From contig JAPLOA010000035.1 in assembly GCA_026400835.1 (NCBI GenBank), positions 124,001 to 188,000 on the forward strand: a DNA stretch of 64,000 nt. Reading direction: 5' to 3'. Shown in pieces: positions 10,152-62,880 of this stretch; the stretch's first letter is position 1; every line of letters begins with the position of its first letter. Position numbers and translations under genes: made by a program. The notes below the pieces were generated by a model. That model did not search any database and was not told the DNA's origin. It worked only from the letters and a program-made list of their open reading frames with translations. The DNA comes from Planctomycetales bacterium (lineage in GTDB: Bacteria > Planctomycetota > Planctomycetia > Planctomycetales > Planctomycetaceae).

Positions 10152-12017
10152 ATGAGCGCATTGTCGACAGATCAATTTGAGTCTCATCTGGAGCAGTTGG
10201 AGACTGCGGCCCGGCGAGGGGACTCGTTGAATCTTCTGTTGCAGATCGCTCAGAAGTCACTCATCTCGCTGGTAGGTACGAACGACGTTGTGATTGTCGT
10301 CGCGGAGGGCAATCAGATTCGACTGCTCGCGGGAACGCCGTCCAGCGAAATCTGTGAGCACATCGGCGATTCAACTCGACTATCGCAAACTCATTCGGAT
10401 CTGCAGATTCAGGAGCAAAGCTCAGGAACCGCCTGGCATGTGACGGTCGCCAGATTGCTCTCAAAGGAACATCGTTGCGTCTGTCATTTCGTGCTGAGTC
10501 GTGATCCACACAAGAATTCTCTGCTCACAGATGCCTGCCAAACTCTGGCCGACGTTCTGACTGAAGCGACCGGACGATTATTGTTGTCTGATCTCAATCA
10601 ACGTCTTCGACAGTATGGTCAGGTCAGCAGTTTTGTGCATAGTCTGGCAAGAACTCGCAGTCTGCAGGAGTGGTCGCAGGAGATTGTGCAGCGTGGCCCC
10701 GAGCATCTCGGGAAAGGTCGCATTACTGTGCTGTCTCGTCAGCACGGAGAATGGATCGCTCTTGCGGCGACCGGCAGCTCAGCGATTAATCCGGCCGCGG
10801 ATGCGGTGTCACGCAATCAGCAGATGGTATCGCTACTCACAAAAGCTTCGATGGTTGGGGAATGGTTGTCGACAACAGCACCATCGGGCACCTCCGATGC
10901 CAGCCTTCTGACTTTGTTCGCACAGTATGAAGCCCTGGGTATTCGCTTCCTCCGAGCGGAAACCGTTTGCGGCAATGACGGCAGTGTGAATCATGCGTTT
11001 CTGACAGAGGTCTTTGGGGCTGAAACGCTTCCCCCGGAGCCGCTCGTTCAACTGCTGAGACAGGAAATTTCTGAGGCGGCTCGATTACTGCCGCGGGAGG
11101 TTGCTCAATCCGGCCTCGCATTGCCGAGAAACCCTGTTACTCGCTGGCTGCTCATCGCGGCTGCAATATCTGGCATTTTGATGGTGATCCCGGCTGATTT
11201 TGAAATCGAAGTTCAGGGACAGGCTTTTCCTCAGGAACGCCGCCGAATTTTTGCGCCGGATGACGGGATCGTAGAAGAGCTTCTGGTGACCGCCGATCAA
11301 AAGGTGTCTGCTAATGAACCGCTGTTGAGATTGCGAAACCCGGAGCGAGAACTCGATTTGAATCGAGTGCTCGGGGATATCGATTCGGCCGTTTCACGAC
11401 TGCAGGCAATCCGGGCTACTCGAACGACGACCGGAGCGACAAACGGAAACAATCCCGCCGCACGTTCGGCGGATTTAAGCAGCGAAGAGCAACAACAGGA
11501 ACGCAAGCTGGAGACGCTGCGTCAGGAACAGACGCTGGTCGAACAGCAGATTGCAGCACTCACAATATCGTCCCCCATTGATGGCGTGGTTTACCAAAGC
11601 CGACTGCAGGAACAATTGCGTTCGCGGCCAGTCCAGCGTGGCCAGCAGTTGCTGGAGATCGTAAACGATTCGGGAGAATGGCAATTGGATCTTCAGGTAC
11701 CTGATTTGGTTGTCGGCTATATTCCCGTGGCAGAGTTCACAAAAGATATCGACAAAGTCGAGGTCCAATTTACTTTAAACGATGACTATCGTTCCGTTCA
11801 CGAGGCGACACTAAAATCGCTCGACACAGCCACCCATCTTCATGATGGACAACTCACTTGTCTGGCGACTGTCGGCGTCGAAAAAACTCTGACAAAGAAA
11901 CTGCGCCCCGGACAAACCGTGTCGGCTCGTATTCGTTGCGGGAGAAAGTCTTTGGCGTTCGTGTGGTTTCGAGAAATCGTTGAGTTCTGGCAAAGGAAAC
12001 GCTTCACGTGGCTTTAG
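10152..12017 (+). CDS. GAF-domain/HlyD-like membrane fusion protein
   Basis: 621 aa. The N-terminal about 320 residues are cytoplasmic and GAF-like (LQEWSQEIVQRGPEHLGKGR onward, about residues 165-320). One membrane segment follows at about 330-347 (WLLIAAAISGILMVIPA). The C-terminal part is a periplasmic HlyD/RND-adaptor fold: a lipoyl-type half (FAPDDGIVEELLVTADQKV), a coiled coil (about 440-475, EEQQQERKLETLRQEQTLV) and the second half (SPIDGVVYQSRLQEQLRSRP). Joining a sensory-type domain to an adaptor suggests ligand-gated or regulated export. First gene of a three-gene set, separated from the next by a repeat element. Confidence 0.82.
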   Translation: MSALSTDQFESHLEQLETAARRGDSLNLLLQIAQKSLISLVGTNDVVIVVAEGNQIRLLAGTPSSEICEHIGDSTRLSQTHSDLQIQEQSSGTAWHVTVARLLSKEHRCVCHFVLSRDPHKNSLLTDACQTLADVLTEATGRLLLSDLNQRLRQYGQVSSFVHSLARTRSLQEWSQEIVQRGPEHLGKGRITVLSRQHGEWIALAATGSSAINPAADAVSRNQQMVSLLTKASMVGEWLSTTAPSGTSDASLLTLFAQYEALGIRFLRAETVCGNDGSVNHAFLTEVFGAETLPPEPLVQLLRQEISEAARLLPREVAQSGLALPRNPVTRWLLIAAAISGILMVIPADFEIEVQGQAFPQERRRIFAPDDGIVEELLVTADQKVSANEPLLRLRNPERELDLNRVLGDIDSAVSRLQAIRATRTTTGATNGNNPAARSADLSSEEQQQERKLETLRQEQTLVEQQIAALTISSPIDGVVYQSRLQEQLRSRPVQRGQQLLEIVNDSGEWQLDLQVPDLVVGYIPVAEFTKDIDKVEVQFTLNDDYRSVHEATLKSLDTATHLHDGQLTCLATVGVEKTLTKKLRPGQTVSARIRCGRKSLAFVWFREIVEFWQRKRFTWL

Positions 12018-12022
12018 GAACA

Positions 12023-12312
12023 GTCCCAAAATAACATCCGGATTTTACTGAGGCGAGACATCAAACCCGACGCGTTAGTATTGAAGTTGCGATGTTCAAG
12101 ACTGGGGAAGATCAACGGGGCGAAAACAAGGGGGAATTATCACAACCCGACGCGTCAGCGAGGGATTTACGGAAACATTGGTAAAACGAGAAATCGCAAT
12201 CCCTCGCTCACGCAGCGGGTTGGGATGGCGGCAAACGCGCAACTTCAAGACGCGTTAGCGAGGGATTCTTGAGTCAGACGTCGATCCCTCGCTGACGCGT
12301 CGGGTTGTGATA
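12023..12312. repeat. MITE/REP-like palindromic repeat, family A
   Basis: Starts with AGTCCCAAAATAACATCCGG six bases after the stop codon of the GAF-HlyD gene. It contains four half-sites of CCCGACGCGTCAGCGAGGG in alternating orientation (about 12138-12167, 12198-12226 inverted, 12248-12267, 12283-12311 inverted). The same end sequence occurs inverted at 44440-44483, and the four-half-site core, including the spacer GCAAACGCGCAACTTCAA, recurs at 62691-62880. Noncoding. The remaining bases to 12474 carry the AGGAG ribosome binding site of the next gene. Confidence 0.8.
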
Positions 12313-12474
12313 CCGAGATCGGCAGGCGTCGTGTTTCACTCAGTTGGGATCCTGTGGAAAAGCGTGTTATGTTCGGCTTAAGCGAAGAGATTTGAGAGAT
12401 ATGCACTGGCGTCTCAGGCCTCGTAAGTGTTGTTTGTTGTGCTGTCCGAGCATTCGGGAATAGGAGTTAAGAGA

Positions 12475-13635
12475 ATGGCAGCTTATCGCACGATCTTTCG
12501 AACCAGACCGATCGCAATCGCACTGAATATTCTCGTGCTGACTCATGTCTCGGCACAGACAGACGAGTTTGAAACCTCAATCACAGTGCCGTCAATGACC
12601 ACGGCCTTGATTCAACATGCTGAAATTGCAGCCCGTGAACCGGGGATTCTGAAATCTCTCGCCGTCAAGCCAGGCGACTCGATTGCGGACGGACAATTGC
12701 TGGCGACACTGGATGATGAGTTGCAGGAAATCGCTGTACAACAGGCTGAACTGAATGTTCGAATAGCAGAACTGAAAGCCAACAACAGTCTCCCGGTAGA
12801 GACGGCCAGGGCCATGGTTCGTGAAGCCGAGCAGGAAAAAGCTAAACTCGAAATCGCGGCTCGCATCAGTCGAAAACAAGCCGAGAGTGATGTAGCAGTC
12901 CGCCTTGCTGAGAAGAGCAAAGAGATCGCAAAGTATGAGCTTGACCGTGCTCAGAAGGCCAAAGAATCTTTCAGTGGAAGCATCTCAAACTCCGAACTCA
13001 ATCGACTGGCCGTTTTGTTCGATCAACGCACCCTCGAAATTGAAAAAACGCAGGAAGACCGTGCGATCAGCCTGCTCAAACCCGAGGCTGATCTGGCAGC
13101 CGTGCAACAACAGGCAGAAGCGATTGCACGCACTCAATCGTTGGCCGCCGAGAAAGAACAGGAACAGCAGGTCGCGCAGGCTAATCTGGAGCTAGCCAAC
13201 TCGGAACTCGCCGAAGCCAAACTGCAATTAGAAAGGCGAAGGCTGAAAGCTCCGTTTGCCGCGACTGTTGTCGCTGTGAGTCGTCAGACTGGCGAGTGGG
13301 TCGAGCCGGGCTCGGTTGTTCTGCGCGTCATTCAACTCGATCGTTTGCGAGTGGAAGGTTTTGTTTCTGCAGATCAAGCAACTGCGATTGAACCCGGCCA
13401 ACGTGTACGGATCGTGTTCCCGGGTAACGTCGGCAAACCAGTTTCAGGTGAGATTACGTTTGTGAGCCCGGAGGTTGAACCCGTCAATCAGCAGGTTCGT
13501 CTCTGGGCGGAATTTGATAACCCGGAAAAGCAAATTCGCCCGGGCCTTGTCGCCACCATGGAAGTCAAATCCAGGAATTCAAAACCTGACGATCGTGAGG
13601 CGAGGAAGGGGAACACTCCACCAGCCACACGTTGA
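12475..13635 (+). CDS. Periplasmic adaptor protein (HlyD/RND MFP family)
   Basis: 386 aa from ATG 12475, chosen over an upstream in-frame ATG because AGGAG lies 8 bases before it. Signal peptide about residues 1-28 (FRTRPIAIALNILVLTHVSA). The fold order is typical: lipoyl half (PGILKSLAVKPGDSIADGQL), a very long Ala/Glu/Gln coiled-coil hairpin (about 85-235), second lipoyl half (LKAPFAATVVAVSRQTGEWV), beta-barrel with GQRVRIVFPG and the terminal IRPGLVATMEV motif. No inner-membrane RND or ABC pump is adjacent; the partner in this locus is the M50-HlyD fusion downstream. Confidence 0.88.
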   Translation: MAAYRTIFRTRPIAIALNILVLTHVSAQTDEFETSITVPSMTTALIQHAEIAAREPGILKSLAVKPGDSIADGQLLATLDDELQEIAVQQAELNVRIAELKANNSLPVETARAMVREAEQEKAKLEIAARISRKQAESDVAVRLAEKSKEIAKYELDRAQKAKESFSGSISNSELNRLAVLFDQRTLEIEKTQEDRAISLLKPEADLAAVQQQAEAIARTQSLAAEKEQEQQVAQANLELANSELAEAKLQLERRRLKAPFAATVVAVSRQTGEWVEPGSVVLRVIQLDRLRVEGFVSADQATAIEPGQRVRIVFPGNVGKPVSGEITFVSPEVEPVNQQVRLWAEFDNPEKQIRPGLVATMEVKSRNSKPDDREARKGNTPPATR

Positions 13636-13778
13636 AGACAGAACTGACCGTTTCGTCCATCGATTCAAACAGGTTAGCAGTCCGCTCAGCCATCAGAGGG
13701 CGCGAGAACAATCGGTGGCGAAAACTAATCATCTCATCACTCGAGATGATCCGCATCAATAAACGGAGACTCTGATTT

Positions 13779-15968
13779 TTGGTTGAATCCGGAGCATACC
13801 CGCAAGCACCGTCGCAGCAGCGACAGGAATCGCCGCCAATTGACTGGCGTCAGCGATGCGATCTGATCATACGTCCGCAGGATTCAGGGTATTGGATCGT
13901 CAAAGATCCGCTGTCACTCTGCTACACAATGCTCAATGAACAGGAAATGGCAGTCCTGAGACACGTGGATGGTTCTCGGACTGTGACCGATCTTCTCGGC
14001 CTGCTGAATTCGGCATGGCCCCAGCGGGAGTTCACTCGCGAAGATGTTGAAGATTTTCTTGCTCAATTGATCCAGAATCAACTCGTTGTCCGAACATCAA
14101 TGAACCGAGCCACCACCGCCTCTCGTTCAACGAAACCCGCAGCCCCAAAGCCGCGCTTCCGAATTGGCCGTTTGCTGCGATTTCAATTGCGATTGATCGA
14201 TCCCACCGCATTCCTGAATCGACTGGAACCATTGATTCGTCAGCTCTTTTCAAAGAAATGCGGACTCGCGCTGATGATGCTGGTGGTCGTTGCAATCGCT
14301 ATGGTGTTCCTGCGGTTTGATCAGCTTGCCCACAACTTACCCGGCCCGTGGGACTTCTTTGGCCCTGATAACTTATTGTTACTTCTGGCAACATTTGTCG
14401 TCGTCAAGACTCTGCATGAAATGGGACATGCCTTCGCAGCTCGACGATTTGGTGCCGAGTGCCACGAAGCAGGGGTCATGCTGATGATGTTTACGCCGCT
14501 GCTTTATACAAACGTTACGGATGCATGGATTCTGGATCGTCGCAGTCGATTGATGATCACTGCGGCCGGTATGCTTGTGGAGCTGGCTTTAGCCTCCGTT
14601 GCCACGATACTGTGGTTTGCAGCCGCTCCCGGAATTCTTAAAGTGATGCTCACCAATGTGATGGTGCTGTGTACCGTCGGAACGATCGTTTTCAACGGGA
14701 ATCCTCTGCTGAGATTCGATGGGTACTTCCTGCTGACGGATTTGGCGGGACTTCCCAATCTCTCTCAACGTGCTTCTCATCGCCTGCAGCAGTTTCTGTC
14801 GTTTCTGTTAATTGGGCGAACAGAGATTCGCCGTGACCGGGAGCCGCCGTTTGTACTGGCCTACGGCGTGTGTTCAGGGATTTATCGAATCTGCCTGAGC
14901 CTCGCGATTCTCCTGATGCTTTATCATCTGTTCGACCACTGGAACCTACGAATCATAGGCTTCGCGCTAACCATGATGGCCTCGGTCTCAATGATTGTTT
15001 TTCCGCTGTTCAATTCATTCAGTGGCCTGGTGGCCGAGATCCTGCATCAGAAGCAGCGAGGATATCTGCTGATGCGATCGTCTTTCATTTTTGCACTACT
15101 TGCGGCGGGCCTGTGCATTCCTCTGCCGCATTCGATCATCGTGCCGTGCGTTGTCGAACCCGTCGGTCGACCGATCTATGCAACAATGTCCGGAGAATTG
15201 AAGTCAGCGGCCAATTATGGCCAGATCGTTTCGCCGGGCGATGTCGTCGCTGTCACCAGCGACCTCAAGCTTCTCCAGCAGCTTACGCATTTACAGGGCG
15301 AAGTGAAAATCCTGCAGACGCGAGTTCGAGCCTATGAACTTGACCGCTCAGGCACGCAGTCCGCATTGCTTCCGGAAGCTCGAAAGATTCTGGATTCAGC
15401 GACGCAGCGAGTCGACCAGTTTGAATCGGAATTAGAAAGATTAGCCACAAGATCGCCCTCAAGTGGCCTCCTGATGCCGCCTCGCGTGACCCCGTTGTCG
15501 GACGATGAAAGTTCGCTCAGCAAGTGGCATGGCTGTCCACTCGATGCCAACAATGTCGGCGCTTTTATCGAAGAAGGAACGTTGCTGGGAACAATTGTTG
15601 ATCCAGCAGCTGTGGAACTCATCCTGCCTGTGAACTCCGCCCAGCGACAACTTCTGCGAGACGGCCAGTCTGTTGAGTTTCAGCCAACCGGGAATCCTCA
15701 CCTGAAGTTCTCTGGTTCGATCGTGCAAATGCCGACGCTGGAATCGACGGAGATTCCTCAGGAGTTGACCGCCGCTGGTCTCGTGCCTCCTTTGACGGCC
15801 GCGAAACCCGGCGAGGACGCTCGACGCTGGCAGGTTGTTTGCCGGGCGGTCGTTCCGGAAGGAAACACACCGCCGCGTCTCTATTCGACCGGCCATGTGA
15901 AAGTGACTGTGGAGCCAGCCTCGCTGTTGACTCGAATGCTCCGCTACGTGAACGCGGCTTTTGAATAG
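13779..15968 (+). CDS. PqqD-like / M50 site-2-protease / HlyD fusion protein
   Basis: 729 aa from a TTG start preceded by CGGAG. Residues about 28-105 resemble a PqqD/RRE winged helix (SGYWIVKDPLSLCYTMLNEQ to FTREDVEDFL). A multi-pass M50 domain follows with zinc motif HEMGH (213-217) and the second motif NGNPLLRFDGY (306-316), the Asp ligand being D314. The C-terminal 240 residues form an HlyD-like lipoyl/coiled-coil region. This architecture is known in YydH-like peptide maturation or export proteins. All catalytic ligands are present, so it is predicted active. It probably works with the two adaptor proteins upstream. Confidence 0.87.
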   Translation: MVESGAYPQAPSQQRQESPPIDWRQRCDLIIRPQDSGYWIVKDPLSLCYTMLNEQEMAVLRHVDGSRTVTDLLGLLNSAWPQREFTREDVEDFLAQLIQNQLVVRTSMNRATTASRSTKPAAPKPRFRIGRLLRFQLRLIDPTAFLNRLEPLIRQLFSKKCGLALMMLVVVAIAMVFLRFDQLAHNLPGPWDFFGPDNLLLLLATFVVVKTLHEMGHAFAARRFGAECHEAGVMLMMFTPLLYTNVTDAWILDRRSRLMITAAGMLVELALASVATILWFAAAPGILKVMLTNVMVLCTVGTIVFNGNPLLRFDGYFLLTDLAGLPNLSQRASHRLQQFLSFLLIGRTEIRRDREPPFVLAYGVCSGIYRICLSLAILLMLYHLFDHWNLRIIGFALTMMASVSMIVFPLFNSFSGLVAEILHQKQRGYLLMRSSFIFALLAAGLCIPLPHSIIVPCVVEPVGRPIYATMSGELKSAANYGQIVSPGDVVAVTSDLKLLQQLTHLQGEVKILQTRVRAYELDRSGTQSALLPEARKILDSATQRVDQFESELERLATRSPSSGLLMPPRVTPLSDDESSLSKWHGCPLDANNVGAFIEEGTLLGTIVDPAAVELILPVNSAQRQLLRDGQSVEFQPTGNPHLKFSGSIVQMPTLESTEIPQELTAAGLVPPLTAAKPGEDARRWQVVCRAVVPEGNTPPRLYSTGHVKVTVEPASLLTRMLRYVNAAFE

Positions 15969-44350: not shown

Positions 44351-44483
44351 AGTCCCGAAAAAAGTTCCCGGTATCACAACCCGACGCGTCAGCGAGGGAT
44401 CGACGTTTGACTCAGGAATCCCTCGCTGACGCTTCGGGTTGTGATGTCTCGCCTTAATAAAATCCGGATGTTACTTCGGGACT
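44351..44483. repeat. Complete MITE-like element, family A
   Basis: 133 bp with terminal inverted repeats AGTCCCGAA (44351-44359) and TTCGGGACT (44475-44483). Inside are two opposed copies of CCCGACGCGTCAGCGAGGG. The right end continues GTGATGTCTCGCC and ATCCGGATGTTAC before the terminal repeat, matching in inverted orientation the start of the 12023 copy. No coding capacity. It lies between obgE and ispH in the region 44230-44564, the rest of which shows nothing else. Confidence 0.82.
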
Positions 44484-62690: not shown

Positions 62691-62880
62691 CATCATAACC
62701 CGACGCGTGAGCGAGGGATTTTCCCAAACACTGCGTGAAACGCAGAAGCTCAATCCCTCGCTCACGCAGCGGGTTGGGATAGTCGCAAACGCGCAACTTC
62801 AAGGCGAGTGAGCGAGGGATTGTTCTGAGGCGTTTGCGAAGTGTCTCCGTAAATCCCTCGCTCACGCTTCGAGTTGGGAT
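62691..62880. repeat. Family A repeat, four-half-site form
   Basis: Four alternating half-sites (62691-62720, 62752-62780 inverted, 62803-62821, 62851-62880 inverted) with the core GACGCGTGAGCGAGGGAT, and the same internal spacer GCAAACGCGCAACTTCAA as the 12138-12311 copy. It ends 1 base before the stop codon of the methylase gene. 62493-62690 shows nothing else. Confidence 0.8.

Follow-up and report, generated by a model that had tools for sequence, protein, structure and literature searches.

Kamneva, Poudel and Ward described in 2015 a type I-like module associated with a secondary SecA_DEAD protein, proposing its M50 protein as the pore, calling the module's role unknown and noting that module partners can sit elsewhere in a genome (PMC4452313). 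The daptide protein MpaP is described as removing daptide leaders (PMC10036551), the LEPR-XLL domain has been reported on a Vibrio protein of ~8000 amino acids with an RTX end in an account whose passages on that protein give the domain no function (PMC10868602), and Planctomycetota are described as one of the bacterial groups with the most huge proteins (PMC11573180). Here we analyze a 64,000-nucleotide window of a Planctomycetales bacterium genome (GenBank assembly GCA_026400835.1, contig JAPLOA010000035.1, positions 124,001 to 188,000) in which three consecutive plus-strand genes, already recognized in an initial annotation made from the letters alone, encode a GAF-HlyD protein (gene 1), a periplasmic adaptor (gene 2) and a PqqD-M50-HlyD membrane protease (gene 3). 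This trio shares with the published SecA_DEAD module a GAF/HlyD protein, an M50/HlyD membrane protein, a HlyD/biotin-lipoyl adaptor and the lack of an ABC transporter; the published module, as set out in the main text of that paper, also has a secondary SecA and sometimes an OEP, whereas no SecA adjoins the trio in the window (PMC4452313). Because both the trio and the notion of the M50 protein as pump are already in Kamneva et al. (PMC4452313), neither is new; the initial annotation's proposal that the M50 protein may itself form the inner-membrane part had thus been published before.

What we add to this published architecture is a lead on the substrate and its tag. We consider it probable that the trio makes up the core, in inner membrane and periplasm, of an exporter that has no ABC transporter, is linked to TolC, and both processes and secretes large tagged surface proteins. 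As the substrate, the gene neighborhoods of its relatives point to giants bearing an LExRxLL tag at the N-terminus rather than to a small peptide. The words PqqD, giant, cadherin and adhesin are absent from the main text of Kamneva et al., whose clusters 4 and 5 appear in supplementary figures only, where large neighbors are possibly recorded (PMC4452313). In the open-access literature passages surveyed, a set without subscription papers, preprints and supplements, nothing connects LEPR-XLL or giant proteins with the M50-HlyD module. The tag follows an approximate consensus LExR-x-[LV]-[LMF]-[SND]-A, corresponds to the NCBIfam domain label LEPR-XLL (NF012209) and lies ~20-100 residues from the start behind a mostly basic leader. 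Across 35 tag rows, in which L/I, E and R were fixed by the search, A occupies position +8 in 27 and L position -5 in 21; two rows (L055, 278 amino acids; L101, 384 amino acids; L numbers denote loci) look like chance open reading frames (ORFs) and were omitted from alignment A6.

Tagged giants accompany the module on plasmids of Pseudomonadota. Searching with gene 3 yielded 76 plasmid records, and we opened 12 from the best 20, all from Pseudomonadota, leaving out H5, H7 and H20, which are apparent near-copies, and H12-H16. A giant frame lies upstream of the module in 12/12 of these loci, the Pseudohalocynthiibacter frame spanning the record start and being unannotated, and the tag or a close variant is present in 11/11 giant N-termini reached, that is, in all but Indioceanicola (L286). 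The tags or variants were read in Thalassospira (IEPRILLSAD, on a giant neighbor itself annotated with a LEPR-XLL domain), Methylosinus (LEPRVLLNAD), Mesorhizobium (LEPRLLLSAD), Ensifer (LEPRYLLSAD), Pseudohalocynthiibacter (YEPRLLLSAD), Cupriavidus (LEPRLLYDAA), Variovorax (LEARYMFDAA), Azospirillum (LEPRFMFDAA), Kosakonia (LEPRMLFDGA) and E. coli (LESRQLFDGA); the Alisedimentitalea tag, LEPRLLLAAD, lies before the annotated start, where the reading frame continues upstream. The Cupriavidus and Pseudohalocynthiibacter tags were missed by the search pattern and spotted by eye.

In planctomycetes, both secondary SecA genes of the source genome adjoin giant ORFs that carry LExRxLL close to their N-terminus, and a tagged ORF lies beside OEP or SecA in 9/20 SecA-centered loci (L235, L237, L244, L245, L246, L248, L249, L251, L253), a set drawn from the next-ranked SecA relatives, belonging to one of two SecA clades and including some close kin; the tagged ORF of L245 is ended by the contig end at 324 amino acids. 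The complete cassette giant<OEP>SecA>MFP>GAF-HlyD>M50 occurs in L246 and L249. Removal of 11 near-copies from 144 loci left 133 deduplicated M50 loci, and there the LExR motif appears within the first 100 residues of 9/43 neighbor ORFs of at least 1000 amino acids, a count that omits the discovery loci L054 and L055 (11/45 with them), while nine altered control motifs gave 0 (eight motifs) or 1. Unlabelled neighbor ORFs carry the motif in 14/165 cases at a length of at least 600 amino acids (controls 0-2) and in 20/769 at a length of at least 250 (controls 0-5), and such an ORF lies no more than 6 kb from M50 at 17/133 loci. A tag model trained on SecA-centered and plasmid tags only gave at least 8 bits to 12 M50-locus ORFs, compared with 0 in the reversed set and 0/90 control ORFs; raw scores were compared with reversed sequences after the E-value result had been seen, the control regions comprise just 90 ORFs, and L157 and L163 among the 12 matches may be false tags.

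Gene content was also compared across genomes. In a sample of 120 from the same family, 115 have a relative of gene 3 (E<=1e-10), and a secondary SecA is absent from 4/5 genomes without M50 compared with 13/115 with it (p=0.0013; 120 genomes); this tally (17/120 without SecA) uses an uncalibrated line drawn by hand at E=1e-95, with weaker matches taken as housekeeping SecA. Absence of LEPR-XLL tracks absence of SecA with p=0.0011 at E<=1 and p=0.029 at E<=0.05. The best match of the planctomycete tag model falls under E=0.005 in 97/115 genomes with M50 and 0/5 without, at a line chosen after the table was seen, with a model trained on loci of such genomes and with related genomes that are not independent.

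Several observations weigh against this reading. No LExR ORF lies within 6 kb at 116/133 M50 loci, some of them shortened by contig ends; the tag model at E<=0.01 retrieves just 1 ORF at M50 loci; LEPR-XLL (NF012209) absence is not significantly associated with M50 absence (p=0.12); and the 13 genomes (of 115) that have M50 and no secondary SecA lack the presumed partner. PF05402 matches gene 3 residues 48-103 at E=6.4e-4 and 20.4 bits, below the 23.4 cut-off, PqqD reaches E<=0.01 in 7/21 gene 3 family members, and Pfam found no PqqD in 3/4 plasmid M50 proteins. Neither a cargo gene nor a SecA or OEP (TolC-family) gene was found in the window, and a tagged ORF adjoins none of its five sister loci, so the function of the window copy is read from its family. 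Finally, the 21 best NF012209 matches include 3 that are module-linked (L245, L266, L268) and 18 that are not, and most LEPR-XLL genes are thus scattered. This scatter suits an alternative in which the module matures or anchors tagged giants, through leader cutting, surface hold or LapG-like release, and export proceeds by another route, such as Sec or an ABC-type type I system; so do the protease being the sole catalytic domain and the many loci without SecA. We nevertheless judge it unlikely, as OEP, the three HlyD parts and often SecA share a cassette with the giant, and the tagged N-termini have no Sec-like hydrophobic stretch: the best 15-mer hydropathy before the tag has a median of 0.65, compared with 2.01 for OEP N-termini, and the leader, being mostly basic and not hydrophobic, is unlike a Sec signal.

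The trio recurs as a unit, in line with the expectation of the initial annotation. Among 103 deduplicated loci with at least 4.5 kb upstream, an adaptor is found in 75 and a same-strand GAF-HlyD gene in 65 (71 if either strand is counted); both partners lie upstream on the same strand in 56 and neither is present in 18. Where at least 8 kb upstream is available, OEP is near in 28/90 loci and SecA in 8/90, and the suggested TolC linkage is thereby seen in relatives. The window copy groups with L057-L060 and L074 in a clade of six (FastTree local support 99); GAF-HlyD>MFP>M50 order is kept in 5/5 sister loci and a divergent OEP lies just upstream in 4/5, an OEP that the window lacks. Identity to the L057 counterparts is 31% for gene 1 and 38% for gene 2. 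Upstream of ~8900, a sister genome whose gene 3 is 90% identical (L056) differs 5' of the trio, and by eye the region has the look of an integrated element beside a tRNA-like end.

The same loci bear on the substrate favored by the initial annotation, in which the module would mature and export a small peptide in the manner of ribosomally synthesized and post-translationally modified peptides (RiPPs), the RRE domain binding a short precursor. Among profiles, that of daptide MpaP, described as a leader remover (PMC10036551), comes nearest to the RRE-M50 part of gene 3, which matches NF041824 with 178.8 bits over residues 34-413 and does not reach its cut-off of 300. The small ORFs around the 133 loci include no recurrent short precursor family, however; a DUF3467-like family is the sole plausible recurrent one, the other leading clusters being antisense or redundant frames by eye. 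A CxxxCxxC ORF, the only motif by which radical-SAM enzymes were sought, lies within 6 kb in just 6/133 loci and none recurs, so no recurrent radical-SAM enzyme emerges either. Giant proteins recur instead, and we regard the small-peptide chemistry as quite improbable. The DUF3467-type protein, ~100-195 amino acids long, stands beside the module in 15/133 planctomycete loci (for example L148 and L158; Pfam checked in two), with four further look-alikes seen by eye, and beside 4/9 annotated plasmid modules (for example L276, L280 and L283); a role as chaperone or pilot is possible.

Features of the three genes are collected in Table 1. For gene 3, the RRE/PqqD-like N-terminus initially proposed was recovered when checked against profiles, with NCBIfam TIGR03859 PqqD at E=1.2e-6 beside PF05402, and the AlphaFold model (pLDDT 86.6) shows the β3-α3 order of PqqD/RRE at residues 30-105; the family profile matches PqqD structure 3g2b weakly (E=0.098). 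The M50 Pfam match has E=1.2e-5 and 25.2 bits, slightly below the cut-off of 27.2, and the zinc ligands are all present as annotated, with HEMGH-type and NGNPLLRFDGY-type motifs both kept in 144/144 homologues longer than 600 amino acids and scoring more than 100 bits. As annotated, HlyD parts are found by profile in genes 1 and 3 (HlyD_3, E=1.5e-10 and E=5.8e-7 in the Pfam scan) and as RND_mfp in gene 2. Since the best 50 Foldseek rows for the gene 3 model are adaptors throughout, its PqqD and M50 calls come from profiles and motifs.

Table 1. Features of the three-gene module, in window coordinates
Feature	Coordinates	Strand	Description or basis
GAF-HlyD gene, 621 amino acids (gene 1)	10152..12017	+	two GAF-like domains (cytosolic), transmembrane helix, periplasmic HlyD adaptor fold
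First GAF-like domain of gene 1 (~residues 1-118)	10152..10505	+	AlphaFold secondary structure; GAF Pfam matches in homologues, none direct
Second GAF-like domain of gene 1 (~residues 171-320)	10662..11111	+	homologue GAF matches, AlphaFold model, family profile
Transmembrane helix of gene 1 (residues 328-345)	11133..11186	+	AlphaFold helix, hydrophobic sequence
HlyD/MFP part of gene 1	11190..11951	+	PF13437; Foldseek MacA 1.7e-13
Periplasmic adaptor, RND_mfp type (gene 2)	12475..13635	+	likely ATG 12475, then signal-peptide-like stretch; GTG 12427 gives longer ORF
PqqD-M50-HlyD membrane protease, 729 amino acids, TTG start (gene 3)	13779..15968	+	profiles, motifs, AlphaFold model
PqqD/RRE-like domain of gene 3 (~residues 22-105)	13842..14093	+	PF05402, TIGR03859, AlphaFold β3-α3
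HEMGH zinc-binding motif (residues 213-217)	14415..14429	+	sequence, conservation
NGNPLLRFDGY (residues 306-316), third zinc ligand Asp314	14694..14726	+	sequence, conservation
C-terminal HlyD/MFP part of gene 3 (~residues 449-715)	15123..15923	+	PF13437; Foldseek MacA 8.1e-12

The GAF-like domain attributed to gene 1 is upheld through homologues and structure prediction. PF01590 GAF at E<=0.01 occurs in 25/44 aligned members, the window copy not among them, and the gene 1 sequence itself has no Pfam GAF match up to E=1, its N-terminal half being without any Pfam match. The AlphaFold model (mean pLDDT 81.9, pTM 0.52) contains two α/β domains with a long helix between them, one transmembrane helix and an adaptor fold, and the family profile matches two PDB histidine-kinase chains over part of the second GAF-like region. 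As the best 50 Foldseek rows with this model are adaptors throughout, with no GAF fold among them, the GAF call rests on the homologues and on the pattern of the model. Site-2 proteases often perform regulated intramembrane proteolysis, and together with the GAF-like domains this habit raises the possibility of a signaling device in which GAF senses a ligand, M50 cleaves a regulator within the membrane and the HlyD parts act as periplasmic sensors. Genes for a TolC-family OEP, SecA and giants recur near the module instead, and no regulator family is conspicuous by eye among the recurrent neighbor clusters, making such a device very improbable.

On the plasmids (L275-L286), the presence of GAF appears to track that of SecA. 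A full-length GAF-HlyD partner is present in six modules (L275-L278, L280, L283) and SecA adjoins in five of them, not in L276; the partner is shorter in the other six (L279, L281, L282, L284-L286) and SecA adjoins in none. The modules lacking SecA and having the shorter partner are those with FDA/FDG-type tags and those of Cupriavidus and Indioceanicola, and two of these shorter partners that were examined have no Pfam GAF match. This pattern would fit GAF domains serving SecA. One such plasmid module, without SecA or detectable GAF, lies beside a 4459-amino-acid Ig-like tagged protein (L285, NZ_CP081687.1); its M50 gene is present at >=99% identity in 24/5426 complete E. coli genomes, the match covering at least 80% of the gene in 22 of them, in 21 plasmid and 4 chromosomal places.

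Gene 2 scores 125.9 bits on the RND_mfp profile, above the NCBI cut-off of 94.9, and judged by eye ATG 12475 is the likelier start over GTG 12427. An AcrA-type hairpin-tip motif was considered and is not conserved (R in 54/104, L in 14/104), so we make no docking claim. The MacA/AcrA-like adaptor folds would suit a tripartite small-molecule efflux assembly with the M50 protein as pump. The 13 other window ORFs scanned with Pfam between 1.8 and 28.4 kb include no ABC, RND, OEP or SecA family, in agreement with the initial annotation that no ABC or RND pump is present; the lack of an energized transporter alongside, the protease motifs kept in all 144 homologues and the linkage to giant proteins make efflux the least probable of the alternatives.

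Elsewhere in the source genome, components of the proposed exporter are available. The genome has three SecA_DEAD genes (contigs C54, C112 and C52; the window is on C53), two of them secondary SecA genes on contigs other than that of the window, and several OEP genes, one of which, on C85, is 60% identical to the OEP of L057. Eight candidate tags, matched by the tag model at E<=0.05, lie outside the window in stop-to-stop frames of 3165, 1301, 364, 306, 5297, 1368, 1963 and 928 amino acids, the 3165-residue frame being in the training set; proteins with such matches are encoded on contigs C52, C95, C72, C27 and C26. The sole LExR-motif match inside the window begins at the third residue of a 288-amino-acid ORF and is an unlikely tag. 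Three more M50-HlyD modules of this genome (L017, L018, L019) fall in different tree clades, L018 joining the one linked to SecA and L019 the one that holds L103. A pairing of the window trio with the SecA-OEP-giant locus on C52 was considered and dropped because the trees suggest the paralogue L018 for that locus. The window also holds a repeat, GACGCGTYAGCGAGGGATT, in ten copies (at most 3 mismatches) of alternating orientation at 12149-12301, 44383-44435 and 62702-62870, where the chance mean is 0.01; four of the ten copies lie between genes 1 and 2.

A fuller version of the exporter proposal, to which we give roughly even chances, is that the M50-HlyD module constitutes a distinct secretion pathway in which PqqD reads the LExRxLL leader, the intramembrane protease cuts it off, and three HlyD parts together with a SecA-like ATPase push the giant through a TolC-type channel. 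The precursor would bear the LExR-type tag after a mostly basic, non-Sec leader, as seen in relatives, and the M50 protein would bind this tag through its PqqD/RRE-like domain in the cytosol. The M50 site would then cut at or near the hydrophobic end of the tag, as the conserved ligands and the daptide RRE-M50 leader peptidase suggest. A secondary SecA, where present, could drive the chain, an idea already published, and more speculatively the tandem GAF domains might dock or gate this SecA-driven chain. The three HlyD parts would assemble into a single adaptor ring that leads on to a channel of the TolC family. In the source genome the OEP, SecA and tagged proteins that would take part are encoded away from the window trio. 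Binding, cleavage and transport by the module are inferred. For a module known since 2015 without a substrate, this puts forward candidates for both the substrate class and the recognition tag. If the proposal is true, the LEPR-XLL domain found on very large surface proteins gains a function, a proteolytic, ABC-free route joins the known ways of export, and the export of such giants by planctomycetes and many Pseudomonadota is explained.

Two described systems frame this proposal. Type I secretion of giant RTX adhesins by HlyB-HlyD-TolC likewise combines an MFP and a TolC-family channel with giant repeat cargo. The type I signal of RTX adhesins is C-terminal. That route differs in its ABC transporter, whereas the module described here has none, and would combine an N-terminal tag with a protease in its membrane part. 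The daptide protein MpaP (NF041824) likewise fuses an RRE/PqqD-like domain to M50, and the leader motif described for its precursors, ELExMEAP, bears a resemblance, and only that, to LExRxLLSA here (PMC10036551). The window protein departs from MpaP in falling below the NF041824 cut-off, in having no short precursors found beside its relatives and in carrying an added HlyD part.

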